Shown one piece after another: positions 35,899 through 47,222 of a DNA stretch of 47,941 nt. Both the position numbers and the translations under genes were made by a program. The notes under the pieces are model-generated. The model had not been told where the DNA came from. It made no database searches and was given only the letters and a program-made list of their open reading frames with translations. Position 1 is the stretch's first letter; the number at the start of each line of letters is the position of its first letter. The stretch comes from Gemmatimonadota bacterium (GTDB lineage Bacteria > Gemmatimonadota > Gemmatimonadetes > Gemmatimonadales > Gemmatimonadaceae), in the NCBI GenBank assembly GCA_002737115.1, contig NSHR01000031.1:1-47941 (forward strand), read 5' to 3'.

Positions 35899-37638
35899 TT
35901 ACCGGAACGGCAGCGGCCCGCTCCCGTTTCGGAGTTCGCGCACCATCCGGTCGTCGCCGGTGAGTTCCCAATACACCAGCGACACGGGAATCATGCCCAC
36001 CGTGTTCACCTCATCGAAGAAGCGCTTCATGGTGAAGGCGCCGCCAAGCTGCCGCGCGCGCTCGGCCATCGTCTCCTCCATGAGTCGGCCACCCGTGACG
36101 TAGCTGGCGCCGTAGCCCGGTTGACGGAGATACAGGTGTTGCTCGAATCCCAACAGCGGATCGCGACGCATCCACCCGCGCGGCGTCCAGCGCACGTGCA
36201 TGTCGGCCGCCTCAGCCATGGTGAGTGTGTTGGCGTGCGCGTACAGATTGCCAAGGCCGCGCGCGGCGCGTGCCGCCAGCATGGTCCACACGATCTCGCG
36301 TGAGCGCGGCGATTGGTCGTATAAGCCCGCCTGCATCATCCACTCTTCCATCGACGTAGCCATCCCTTCGGCCCGGCTCATCCACACGTTGTACAGCAGC
36401 GGCGTGCGACGGATGGGGCTCGCGTGCGGATGCTCGCGGAACCGGCCGTTGTCCCACCAATGCCAGAGGTGCGTCCACAACGTACGCGGATCGCGGTGCG
36501 TGGCCTGCGAGAAGAAATTGCGCGTGGCCTCGGGCGAGTACGACTGAAAGCGCTCGCGCAACGCGCGCTCCATCCACGGTTCCACCGTCACGATGCCTTT
36601 GTCGCGGAAGAACTACATGTACTTCGGCAGGGCCTCGGCTTGCATCGTCGCGAACTGCGCGGCCGACTTAGCCACCGCCATGGGCGGCAGCGCGGCGTTG
36701 CGTGTTTCCTCGAGGCGCAGTGACGCGTGCGCGCGAGCGAGTTCGCGACGCGTAATCGTGACTTCTTCCTCCCACGATAGCGGTACCAGCAGCACGTTCT
36801 TCAGGAACCACGTGTACTGCGTTGTGCCGATGCCAGACTTGCCCGTCTTTTTGGGCGCTTCGGTGCGGAGCCAGCCGGCAAACGATTCGGTGGCACTCGC
36901 CGCGCCGGCAATCGCGGCCTTGAGCGCGCTGTCGTTTGGGTTAGCAGTGCCCACCAACGTGGCCAGTGTGCCGAGCGCGTCGTGCTGTTCTTCGAACGTC
37001 TTCACGGCGCCCACCCACAAGTCCTTGGCGTTGCCATTGGCCAGATTCACCCGCGCCTGGCGTAGCAAGGTGGGGATCGTGTTCAACTGCGCCGTGAGAC
37101 GGCGTGATTCATCAGCGTTGAGGGCACGCGACTGGTCGAGCACGGTTCGCGGCCACACTGGATACCGCCACAAGCGGACGGCACCATGAATCATGGGGCC
37201 CTCCTCGGCCGGCGTATCGCTTTCTTCGGTGCGCACCGAGGCGTAGTAGGCCGGGTCGCGCGAAAACGGCGTCAGCACGGTGAGGTGATACTGCATGCCG
37301 TTCATTTCGGCGCGCACCAGGTGCCAGTCTACCTGCTCCGGCACGCGCCAGCCGGTGGTATCGATGGCGCGTAGCTTCGCCTGCAAGGCGCGCAGGGCGG
37401 TGAGCCGGCGCGCGTTGGTGGGTGGGGTGTAATCGGGAATCCCGTCGCGGCGCGGCGGCTCCTCGAAGGTGCGCCATTCAGTGAACAGCGACAGCAGCTG
37501 GGGATAGCTACGGCTCGGCGAGGCCGACTGCGCGTGAAGCAGGGGCTGCGGCACCACGAGCAGGGCCATCAGCGCGGCGGTCACGGCGGCGGTCACGGCA
37601 ACGGGGCCCCGGACGGGGCGAAGGCTGAAGAAAGGCAT
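35899..37638 (-). pseudogene. DUF885 gene interrupted by an in-frame TAG
   Basis: From ATG 37638 a DUF885-like exported protein (signal segment VTAAVTAALMALLVV, then about 340 residues) runs to ALPKYM and meets TAG at 36613-36615. In the same frame the next codons read FFRDKGIVTVEPWMER and continue for 230 residues to 35899, as expected for the rest of the family. The total of 579 codons fits full-length DUF885. The usual HExxGH motif is not recognisable in the second part; HWWDNGRFREH and RAEGMATSMEE occupy that zone. It is therefore a diverged copy with one nonsense change, either a young pseudogene or a readthrough case; a sequencing error is also possible. Confidence 0.8.
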
Positions 37639-37719
37639 GTCCAAATGTACGCCTGAATCAATTTCTTGCACGCGACCCGACTGGAGCACGGATTTGACGG
37701 CCTATAAGGCTGGATCGCT

Positions 37720-37834
37720 AACGGCCAGAACACGGATGACACGGATTTCACCGAACCAACACGGATAAGCCAACAGCGCTTTTGCTTATCCGTGTTGATT
37801 CCGTCTCGTCCGCGATATCCGTGTTCTGGCTGTT
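37720..37834. repeat. Nested palindromic intergenic element, copy 1
   Basis: The outer arms 37720-37737 and 37817-37834 pair over 18 bp with one G-U (core CCAGAACACGGAT / ATCCGTGTTCTGG). The inner arms 37757-37770 and 37784-37797 pair perfectly over 14 bp (CAACACGGATAAGC / GCTTATCCGTGTTG) around the loop CAACAGCGCTTTT. The element lies between the DUF5916 stop and the start of the broken DUF885 gene. The second copy at 47103-47222 aligns with it end to end when reversed. Confidence 0.88.
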
Positions 37835-37847
37835 GCTGTTGATGCCA

Positions 37848-40082
37848 CTAAAACGCCACCATGCGCGTGACTTTGATCGCGACGGACCGCTCGTTGCGCA
37901 CGTTCGTGAACGTGTTTTGCCGTTCCGTATACACGAGGAACACATCGCTGAGCGGCGCATAGCGCCATGCTAGACGAGCGTTGGTCACGAAGCTGCGTGA
38001 CTGCGTGTTGTACTGCACGAACGTGCTGCCGAAGAGCGTGGTGGAATACGCGTACTTCACGCGCACGCCGCCGAGGTCGGCGGCAAACGCGCCGCTGGGC
38101 AGCGATACATCGTTGTGCTGATACGTGCCCTCGAAGCTGATATCGTAGCGCGGGCGCCAGGTGAGTCCGCCGCTCAGCGTGGTGTTGGTGCCGTTGTAGA
38201 AGTCACCGACCTGTACGCCGGCGTTGCCGTACACCGGATAGCGCTGGGTGGAGGTGTAGGTGGCTTTGGCGTTGCGGAAATTGTAGCGGCCCACCGGGAT
38301 AGACCGGCCCGGGAACGGTGTGAAGGTGCGATCGAGGCGATCGAACCAGTCGTTCACCTGGAGCTTGAGTTCACCATCAGGCTGAAAGAACACATCCAGT
38401 GCGGCGGTGATCTGATGCGACTGCGCGCTGCCGTCGAAATCGGTGTACAGGTCCGCCTCGACGTACGGATTGAGCTCCTGAATGCCTTTCAGTTTCGGTC
38501 GCGCGTGAAGGCCGGTGGTGGCATACATCTGCTGGAAGCCGCGGCGATTCACGAAGCCGATGCCGGGATCGAAGTGATCCGACACGCGCTTGTACATCGC
38601 GGAGCTGTTCCAGAGTTTTCCGCGATACGCCGCCGATACGCGTCCTGCCGTGCCGTTGGAGCTGGCGGTGTCTGACGCGCTCACGGCGACGTACGAGTTG
38701 ATGATCAGATTGCCCAGCAGGCGGATGTTCGCATCCACACCGTACGAGCGATTGTAGGTGCCGCTGCTGTCGGTGGCCTGACGATTGGCGGCCAGCAGTC
38801 CAATGTCCGAGTTGCCGAAGATGTTTCGGCGCACACGCGCCACGGCGAAGTTCTCGGTCGGTGTGGTGCTCGCGCGTTGCGTTTGCATATCGAGCAGTCC
38901 CACTTCCCATCCACCCACGCGGCCGGTGAGACGACCGCCGCCGGCAATGGGAATGGGCAGGCCGTCTTTCGTGAGCCCGATCTGGCGTGAGTTGAACAAC
39001 GTAAAATCACTCAGCGACGCGCCCATCCGATAATTGCGCTCGGTTACATCACCAAAGGTGAATGAACCAGCGTTTTCGATGAAGAACTCGCGGCGTTCAG
39101 GGAAGAGAATACCGAAGCGCGTGAGGTTCACGACCTGCTGATCTACCTCGACCTGCGAGAAGTCGGTGTTGACCGTGAGATCGAGCGTGAGCGACGGTGT
39201 GACGCCGTACTTAAGATCACCACCGATGTCGGCCTTGCTGCCCAGCAGGCTGCTGGGCACTTGCGCGCCGGCCGAGTTGCGCGCCAGCGCGTAGGGCTTG
39301 ACTTGCAGGTTGCGCCCCTGCTTGAGCCCCGTGATGCCTTCCATCGTGCCGGCCTTCGACATGCGATGCACGCGATACTGGCGCTCGAGGGGCGCCCAGT
39401 ACGACGTTTCGTTCACGCGACGCACCCGACGGATGAAGTTGATCCCCCACGTTTGCGGGTCGCGCGTGGCATCGAAGCGCAGCGTCTTGAGCGGGATCCG
39501 CATTTCGAGCGTCCAGCTTGAGTCGCGTTGCACCGTGCGCACAGTGGAGATGCCGTCCCACGCTTCGACGATTTGGCGCGAGTCATTGAACGTCTGCTCG
39601 TCGCGCACCGCACCCTTCGGGTTGATGAGGAACAGGAAGGAGTTGCGTTTGTCGTTGAACGTGTCGAACACCACGCCGAAGATGTCGCTGTTCGACGATA
39701 CGAAGTCGCGCTCGAGCCCCACCGTGATCGCCCTCTCCGGCTCCGGGTCGTAGTTGACGCTGGCGACGTAGAGATTGGTGGCGTCGTACAGCACCCGCAC
39801 CTCCGTGCGGAAGCGCGCCGGATAGCCGGTGCTCGGCAGCTGCTGCACGAAGTCGGTGAGCACGGGGGCGGCGGCCCAGGCGGCGTCATCGAGCGTGCCG
39901 TCTACGACAATGGGGCTCGGGGCGCGCGCGGCGCGGAAGGACGGTCGGGCCACCGTTTCCGGATTGACCGACACGGCCGCGCGGTTCAGGCCGGGGCCCT
40001 GGGCGTGAGCGGCGGCGGCCAGCAGCATCGCGGCGGCGAGTAGCAGACAAGAAAAACGCCGCGGCGTCGAGTGGTGAGGCAT
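37848..40082 (-). CDS. DUF5916 protein: CBM9-like domain plus outer-membrane barrel
   Basis: The 744-residue protein has a signal peptide ending in AAAHAQ, then a CBM9-like region (about 55-225: PIVVDGTLDDAAWAAAPV, VRVLYDATNLYVASVNYD, SSWTLEMRIPLKTLRF), followed by DUF5916 (NTDFSQVEVDQQVVNLTRFGILFPERREFFIENAGSF) and a long run of beta strands ending in Phe, as outer-membrane barrels do. Binding of a carbohydrate or other polymer at the cell surface is inferred. A palindromic element follows 13 bases after the stop. A start with ATG 40082 leaves 63 bases to the upstream Ada-like gene on the same strand. Confidence 0.9.
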   Translation of the reverse strand: MPHHSTPRRFSCLLLAAAMLLAAAAHAQGPGLNRAAVSVNPETVARPSFRAARAPSPIVVDGTLDDAAWAAAPVLTDFVQQLPSTGYPARFRTEVRVLYDATNLYVASVNYDPEPERAITVGLERDFVSSNSDIFGVVFDTFNDKRNSFLFLINPKGAVRDEQTFNDSRQIVEAWDGISTVRTVQRDSSWTLEMRIPLKTLRFDATRDPQTWGINFIRRVRRVNETSYWAPLERQYRVHRMSKAGTMEGITGLKQGRNLQVKPYALARNSAGAQVPSSLLGSKADIGGDLKYGVTPSLTLDLTVNTDFSQVEVDQQVVNLTRFGILFPERREFFIENAGSFTFGDVTERNYRMGASLSDFTLFNSRQIGLTKDGLPIPIAGGGRLTGRVGGWEVGLLDMQTQRASTTPTENFAVARVRRNIFGNSDIGLLAANRQATDSSGTYNRSYGVDANIRLLGNLIINSYVAVSASDTASSNGTAGRVSAAYRGKLWNSSAMYKRVSDHFDPGIGFVNRRGFQQMYATTGLHARPKLKGIQELNPYVEADLYTDFDGSAQSHQITAALDVFFQPDGELKLQVNDWFDRLDRTFTPFPGRSIPVGRYNFRNAKATYTSTQRYPVYGNAGVQVGDFYNGTNTTLSGGLTWRPRYDISFEGTYQHNDVSLPSGAFAADLGGVRVKYAYSTTLFGSTFVQYNTQSRSFVTNARLAWRYAPLSDVFLVYTERQNTFTNVRNERSVAIKVTRMVAF

Positions 40083-45377: not shown

Positions 45378-45867
45378 CAGCCAGCGCCCGCTCGATGTCC
45401 GGAATCATGTCGCTCGGTGCCATGGTGGGATCGAAGCGCTTGATGACTTGTCCATCGCGACCGATCAGGAACTTGGTGAAGTTCCATTTGACCGACGTGG
45501 TGCCCAGCAGGCCGGGCTTCTCGCTCTTCATCCACTGCCAGAGCGGGTCGGTGTCATCGCCATTCACGTTGAGCTTCGACGTGAGCGGGAAGGTGACATC
45601 GAACTTGGTGCTGCAGAACTGCACGATCGTTTCTTCCGTGCCCGGCTCCTGCCCGCCGAACTGATTGCACGGACAGCCGAGCACGGTGAGCCCCTGCGCC
45701 CGGTAGCGGCGGTTCAGTTCTTCGAGGCCGGCATACTGCGGCGTGAGTCCGCACTGACTCGCCACGTTTACCACCAGCGTGACGCCGCCGGCGAGTGACG
45801 ACAGCGGTAGCGCGTCGCCGGTGATCGATGTGACGGTGAAATCGGAGAAGTTTTTCGGCGTGCTCAC
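45361..45867 (-). CDS. Glutathione-peroxidase-family, probable thioredoxin-dependent peroxidase
   Basis: The 168-residue protein has the peroxidatic cysteine in [11 protein letters not shown] (Cys39), the [10 protein letters not shown] loop, and [13 protein letters not shown] with the catalytic Trp and Asn. A further cysteine in [13 protein letters not shown] sits where thioredoxin-dependent members keep the resolving cysteine, so thioredoxin is a likelier donor than glutathione. It reduces peroxides in cytosol or periplasm; no signal peptide is seen. GTG 45867 overlaps the TGA of the DUF2911 gene (GTGA), so the two are coupled. Confidence 0.93.
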
Positions 45868-47033
45868 GGACGCACCGCCGTGGCGGATCCAACCGTGGCG
45901 GTGAAGGGCACGCTCATCACGCTCGGTCCCCACGACATCTCGATTGTACCGCGCGTGGGGTTGATCGCGCGCACCACGATCGTGAACTCTTCCACGTGAC
46001 TCGGCGTGGCCGACATCTGCATCGGTATGCGCGCGAGGTCGTTGGCGGCCGAGTACACGGTGCCCCACTGGCCGACCTGCTTGTTCACGATGAGCCACGT
46101 GCCGGTGCGCGTGTGCTGCACGAACAACGAGTACGCGCCCGGTGGGACGACCACGTCACCCATGGTGAGCGTGCGCGACGTGAACAGGTGTGTGGCGTCG
46201 TTGGCACCGGTGCGCCATATGCTGTCGAACGGCACCAGTGTGCCGCCCCACACACTGCGGTCGCGCACCGACGGACGACCGTAGTCGATGAGCACCATGC
46301 CGCCCTGTCCGAACGCGCCGCGCGCGGTTTCGCGCAGCGACAGGGTGCCGGTGGGCTTCATGCTCTTCGCGATGGCGGCGATGTCGAGGCCGCCGGCGCC
46401 GCGCATGCCCGTGGACTTGTTGGTGGTGAGCGATCCGTCCACCGATTGGAGACGCTGGTTGGCATCGAAGCGCAGCACCATGGCATACGCGCCACCGCGC
46501 AGACGCAACGAGTCGCCGCCGCCGGCTGTGATGCCGGTGAGGCCGAGATTCCCGGTGAGGCCGAGGGCGGGAAGGGAATCAACGGCCGCCTTGCTCTTGG
46601 CGAGCGTGGCGAGCAGTTCCGTGGGGCCGTAGATGAACGTGGGGAAGTTGATCATCGCCTGCGTGGCCGCGAACGCCCGTCGCGGCGTGCTGTCGGCGAA
46701 CACCGTTTCGCGCACGATGGAATCGGCGGTCACGGTGAAGCGCGTGTCGCTGGGCGTGTTCGGCGGCAGCGAGCCGTCGGCGTTGAGGCGCTTGATCGAC
46801 GCCGTCGTGGGGCGCCCGTTCTTGGCCAGCGTGATCATGTATTGGTAGCGCGCCACGGCGGCGCCCGAGCGCTGCACCATCTCGCCGATCATGCCGGTGG
46901 CGGTGCGCGTGTACTGCTCGATGGCCACGGTGTCCTTGCCGAGCCGGTACACGAGCGAGGCTTGCTGGGCGGACAGCGGGGTCGCGGCGAGGAGTGCGGT
47001 GCCGGTGGCGAGCGTGGTGACGAAAAGTCGCAT
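45864..47033 (-). CDS. Exported DUF2911 protein
   Basis: The 389-residue protein has a signal peptide ending in PLSAQQ. The C-terminal half (about 225-385) is DUF2911, with SVWGGTLVPFDSIWRTGANDATHLFTSRTL, VVPPGAYSLFVQHTRTGTWLIVNKQVGQWGT and a final VEEFTI strand. The N-terminal half is beta-rich with no recognised family. DUF2911 proteins are exported, common in Bacteroidetes and Gemmatimonadota, and have no known role. ATG 47033 is the start; the frame extends to 47324 through the palindromic element but that is not coding-like. Confidence 0.9.
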   Translation of the reverse strand: MRLFVTTLATGTALLAATPLSAQQASLVYRLGKDTVAIEQYTRTATGMIGEMVQRSGAAVARYQYMITLAKNGRPTTASIKRLNADGSLPPNTPSDTRFTVTADSIVRETVFADSTPRRAFAATQAMINFPTFIYGPTELLATLAKSKAAVDSLPALGLTGNLGLTGITAGGGDSLRLRGGAYAMVLRFDANQRLQSVDGSLTTNKSTGMRGAGGLDIAAIAKSMKPTGTLSLRETARGAFGQGGMVLIDYGRPSVRDRSVWGGTLVPFDSIWRTGANDATHLFTSRTLTMGDVVVPPGAYSLFVQHTRTGTWLIVNKQVGQWGTVYSAANDLARIPMQMSATPSHVEEFTIVVRAINPTRGTIEMSWGPSVMSVPFTATVGSATAVRP

Positions 47034-47102: not shown

Positions 47103-47222
47103 AACAGCCAGAACACGGAGACCGCGGAAGCGCACCGAAACAACACTGATAAGATAAAAAGCGCTGTTCATCTTATCGGTGTTGTTTCGGTGCTGTTCCG
47201 TGATTTCCGTGTTCTGGCTGTT
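47103..47222. repeat. Nested palindromic intergenic element, copy 2
   Basis: The outer arms 47103-47119 and 47206-47222 are perfect over 17 bp (AACAGCCAGAACACGGA and its complement). The inner arms 47133-47155 and 47170-47192 pair over 23 bp with one G-U. The loop AAAAAGCGCTGTTC is the reverse complement of the loop of copy 1 for 11 or more bases. It lies in the 274-base gap between the divergent DUF2911 gene and the next gene; the remainder of that gap shows nothing else. Confidence 0.9.

Follow-up and report, generated by a model that had tools for sequence, protein, structure and literature searches.

Several families of dispersed palindromes are known from the intergenic space of bacterial chromosomes, and the element described here, which occurs in Gemmatimonas, appears closest in anatomy and place to the ERIC-type and TIR-type intergenic palindromes (PMC2229807, PMC3733652). 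Like ERIC/IRU (127 bp), it is an intergenic, dispersed inverted repeat of similar length that carries no gene of its own. Compared by description, however, ERIC is listed with a target-site duplication (TSD) and TA termini (PMC2229807), whereas the Gemmatimonas element shows no TSD and has arms built on a repeated word. REPs and REPINs are also extragenic palindromes located mainly downstream of genes, between unidirectional or convergent ORFs and sometimes in clusters. REPs measure 20-40 bp, bear a GTAG or CGTC tag and lie on either side of RAYT genes (PMC3733652, PMC2817692); most are in fact defined by those tags (PMC3733652). The Gemmatimonas palindrome shares their placement but not their size, tag or RAYT linkage. 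The terminal inverted repeats (TIRs) of TIRYT elements likewise form families, some of them self-complementary, that can be both dispersed and clustered (PMC3733652), but the Y1 genes examined in the genus have other ends, with GGGGTCAG, which fit the published TIRYT motif GGGGWSAS (PMC3733652). Finally, the Rickettsia palindromic elements (RPE), YPAL and the Caulobacter CIR are dispersed palindromes as well, RPE and YPAL measuring about 100-170 bp; again by description, RPE differs in that it enters genes (PMC2229807).

The window analysed here, a stretch of 47,941 nucleotides, belongs to a Gemmatimonas-group draft genome (G000; 2.05 Mb in 89 contigs, 57% complete). Its two longest inverted repeats are the palindromes at 37720-37834 (copy 1) and 47103-47222 (copy 2), which the initial annotation had placed correctly. 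Their predicted folds have z-scores of -9.3 and -12.1, respectively, and in neither case did any of 200 dinucleotide shuffles fold equally well. Both are full-length members of type A, a subtype of 110-120 bp with an apex near AAAAGCGCTTTT. Copy 1 has arms of ~50 bp and the apex CAACAGCGCTTTT; copy 2 lies inverted with respect to it, and each aligns from end to end with the reverse complement of the other (80% identity, E = 1.9e-20), in agreement with the alignment originally reported. The arms, AACAGCCAGAACACGGA..., constitute terminal inverted repeats of the kind that defines MITEs. Outside copy 1, positions 37712-37719 (forward strand) hold a section of an outer end (GGCGAGATCGCTAAC...) that recurs at many copies, and a short hexamer tract, (GCAACA)n, occupies the base of its hairpin at 37828-37841 (reverse strand). 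An Rfam scan of the window returned no match, and the literature searches carried out found no description of a Gemmatimonas palindrome family. The family in freshwater Gemmatimonas is apparently undescribed so far.

The pair had been taken for a two-copy family, a view overturned by a search of the genome and its relatives. Within the 2.05 Mb of the source genome alone there are 9 copies of full length and about 7 that are long-apex, partial or at a contig edge. In the genus, the element is abundant in nine of 30 species and several others have diverged forms; a search of 31 genomes belonging to other genera within the same family and order gave no match at E <= 0.001. Among the named records that carry it are Gemmatimonas phototrophica and other MAGs of freshwater Gemmatimonadota. 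The plasmid and phage collections searched gave no match to the palindrome, and viral contigs gave 4 matches to a degenerate pattern. Matches to Nocardiopsis, Massilia and other organisms outside Gemmatimonadota in the genome scan were rejected as chance hits to the short pattern, because a full-length profile fails to recover them. Besides type A, there are longer-apex subtypes with ~40 or ~110 additional apical bases; the ~110-nt apices (L078, L019, L073, L122 and L083) often contain TTTGATTGAACAACA-like segments and smaller hairpins. At L122, a gap of 1.6 kb between facing arms was inspected as a candidate autonomous element and showed no transposase-like ORF; no autonomous parent whose ends match was found. 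Tandem arrays of 3-7 units also occur, repeating every ~190, 230 or 255 bp, each unit of the long-period arrays bearing a full or split palindrome (L062:5990-7330, period ~190 bp; L078:3716-5499, ~255 bp; L058:171-753, ~230 bp; L094:3537-4500, ~259 bp).

The copies favour sites just past stop codons and are scarce in divergent promoter regions. None of the 81 sites that could be classified from codon-usage gene calls lies inside a gene; 31 are between convergent genes, 44 between tandem genes and 6 between divergent ones, and the distance to neighbouring stop codons clusters at ~10-50 bp. Intergenic regions with the element divide into 21 convergent, 35 tandem and 4 divergent, as against 22, 89 and 46, respectively, for regions of the same contigs that lack it (p = 6e-5), divergent regions being depleted (p = 2e-4) and convergent ones enriched (p = 0.001). 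This preference for tandem or convergent ORFs, mostly downstream of genes, is the one typical of REPs. Copy 1 conforms to it: it lies downstream of a CBM9/DUF5916 gene (37848-40028, reverse strand), 13 bp from the stop codon, and upstream of a DUF885 gene (36613-37689, reverse strand), 30 bp from the start. The latter and the adjacent reverse-strand ORF at 35899-36591 match different parts of DUF885, the match of 35899-36591 falling just under the curated cut-off, which suggests a split or frameshifted gene, either real or due to an assembly error. Copy 2, 69 bp from the start of a DUF2911 gene (45864-47033, reverse strand), sits between divergent genes, a rare placement for the family.

What distinguishes the arms is a six-letter word, CRCNGA (N free), that each of them carries about four times. 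Spacings of 9 and 11 bp dominate, typically in the series 9, 9, 11 bp, which sets the words at intervals of roughly a helical turn, and one arm is the inverted copy of the other. In copy 1, the left-arm array (37731-37765, forward strand) consists of CACGGA at 37731 and 37740, CACCGA at 37749 and CACGGA at 37760, and the right-arm array (37789-37823, reverse strand) of the reverse-complement words, with TCCGTG at 37789-37794 and 37818-37823. Copy 2 has CACGGA at 47114, CGCGGA at 47123, CACCGA at 47133 and CACTGA at 47144 in its left arm (47114-47149, forward strand), and the corresponding right-arm array at 47176-47211 (reverse strand). Across 13 ortholog pairs, changes affected 14 of 520 word-core cells (2.7%), 24 of 104 cells at N (23%) and 66 of 669 in other stem columns (9.9%). 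The rate in word cores is thus ~4 times lower than in the remaining stem columns and ~9 times lower than at N within the same word, although this contrast is partly circular, because the family that served to define the word columns is also the one in which they were tested. Pairing would hardly account for N changing so much faster than the letters next to it. In word-core pairs, no change was two-sided except for 2 cells at the R position.

RNAalifold, applied to 61 type-A copies, assigned a covariation term of 0.06 kcal/mol, with a single pair showing two-sided change. When the full structure was imposed on the same copies, 87.7% of cells paired, versus 86.4% after the 3' letters had been reshuffled among partners, and position by position the variable columns pair close to the expectation for independently varying arms. 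The compensatory stem changes expected of a structured RNA were not found in these comparisons, apart from slightly more covariation than expected at a few spacer pairs (18-20/106-108 and 38/87). Of the pairs that changed in ortholog comparisons, some of which share a copy, 29 remained paired, 68 went from paired to unpaired or the reverse, and 21 had no pairing in either copy, so that substitutions alter pairing status more often than they preserve it, an outcome that the initial annotation itself had named as refuting its view. The initial annotation had pointed to a C-G pair at the tip of the inner stem replaced by A-T in the other copy as a sign of selection on folding. The difference is literally true for copies 1 and 2, but most AT-containing combinations in the family are mismatched: AT stands opposite GC in 7 copies and C opposite ATC in 4, while the matched AT-ATC occurs in 3. 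Selection on folding is therefore not supported, and the feature conserved among the copies is the repeated DNA word.

The explanation that we tentatively favour is that of an old, non-autonomous, ERIC-like dispersed intergenic palindrome, probably shaped by a putative sequence-specific DNA-binding protein. The words would be the contact sites of that protein, which might be a transposase, a nucleoid factor or a termination factor. The palindrome would have spread by a copying activity that may now be absent, and it would persist where it is least harmful, in the 3' intergenic space, where the hairpin in its transcript could have a secondary effect on mRNA ends. The covariation excess at spacer pairs, a sign of some coupling of the two arms, counts against this explanation.

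Orthologous sites show that the element is old. Most orthologous copies are 90-98% identical, compared with a mean of 79% among copies within the source genome, although some ortholog pairs (81.7% and 80.2%) are no closer than paralogs. Since orthologs are usually more alike than copies of the same genome, many insertions are older than these species, and dispersal as a rule came before them. At the copy 1 site, the full element is present in the source genome, G017, G024 and G029. In G014 and G020 a related palindrome with a different apex stands in its place, both of its arms having changed together; G027 retains only a short apical hairpin; deletion of the hairpin has left in G025 a single arm fused directly to the right end, a remnant that would fit deletion by slippage; and G011 and G028 are without the element. 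In addition, (GCAACA)n tracts flank 68 of 116 hairpin bases, versus 1% of random places, and the length of the tract at the copy 1 site differs between species, from which slippage is seemingly promoted at the hairpin base. None of 58 copies had a direct repeat of at least 4 bp at the chosen boundary (0.12 expected), where old TSDs could be missed because the hexamer tracts blur the true ends.

Much of this history could also belong to a neutral fossil of an extinct mobile palindrome, in which template switching from one arm to the other has preserved their likeness and the words represent ancestral sequence rather than present selection. Presence and absence, truncation and collapse at orthologous sites fit such a fossil, as do the joint change of both arms in G014 and G020, the slight coupling of arms and the failure of our searches to find a transposase. 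It is nevertheless difficult to reconcile with the slow change of the word cores, as neutral decay would not spare exact letters, and we regard it as possible but rather doubtful. It has also been considered that the palindrome is an RNA element, that is, a transcribed 3'-UTR hairpin selected for its fold, which would stabilize mRNA ends or block read-through from both sides. The very stable fold and the location just past stop codons and between convergent genes, as for REPs (PMC3733652), argue for it. On the other hand, column composition accounts for nearly all of the pairing, the genes on either side of copy 2 are divergent, and intrinsic-terminator prediction flagged neither copy 1 nor copy 2, which also tells against the terminator proposed at the outset. 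A function as RNA is thus unlikely.

Still less probable is a REP/REPIN or TIR repeat mobilized by a Y1 transposase of the RAYT or TIRYT type. The description as a REP/MITE-like mobile palindrome holds insofar as the element is dispersed, nested, intergenic and MITE/REP-like; a link to RAYT was looked for and not found. Palindromic form, dispersal in 3' intergenic space and tandem clusters recall REPs, and of the 30 genomes of the genus 8 encode PF01797 (Y1_Tnp), three of these 8 being rich in the element. However, the search for this domain gave nothing in the 57% complete source genome, and no Y1 gene was found in the closed, element-rich G029, in G021 or in G112. None of the Y1 loci examined has element arms, and word arrays are absent from them save for L184, where one reverse array lies ~190 bp beyond the gene; the Y1 genes of G024 and G025 have ends of their own containing GGGGTCAG. 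GTAG or CGTC occurs within 15 bp of 4 of 122 ends and CTAC at 10, so that no consistent tag accompanies a unit of 110-120 bp. At L178 and L180 the Y1 genes have their own ends, TCAAGGGGTCAGAGTCGTTGAAC. Membership in the REP/RAYT system was rejected on these grounds (no Y1 in a closed element-rich genome, no consistent tag, unrelated Y1 ends), and the transposase may since have been lost from the lineage. L178 (1215-2155) and L180 (1287-2197), Y1 tyrosine transposase genes with perfect inverted ends of 23-24 bp in two congeners, are apparently TIRYT elements in their own right, with an additional palindromic copy next to one end. Finally, chance or an assembly artefact, for which nothing speaks beyond draft-MAG quality, has a negligible probability given the fold z-scores of -9 and -12, and is refuted by the copies present in the independent closed genome G029.

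The words, in turn, may extend beyond the genus. In scattered Gemmatimonadota, arrays of the word with different spacers outnumber matches to a reversed-pattern control by a wide margin (235 versus 4, 116 versus 5 and 40 versus 2), and of the distant arrays sampled several, though not all, form strong palindromes when folded. Many arrays of CRCSGA, some forming strong palindromes, were noted in the distant genomes G079, G112, G122 and G120. In G087 the reversed control pattern is itself very abundant (205 matches), hinting at a separate repeat family there. It is conceivable, if still conjectural, that a phylum-wide class of hairpins shares a word code, with CRCNGA once per approximate helical turn in inverted arms and lineage-specific spacers, that would be read by a putative DNA-binding protein at the 3' ends of genes.

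These observations add an apparently undescribed palindromic repeat family to a little-studied phylum, with at least one closed, element-rich genome devoid of a Y1 transposase. They also show that a hairpin can be near-perfect without being under selection to fold, since here the sequence is conserved but the base pairing is not. Should the words be sites for a protein, the copies would mark out a binding system that spans the chromosome and lies at the ends of genes.
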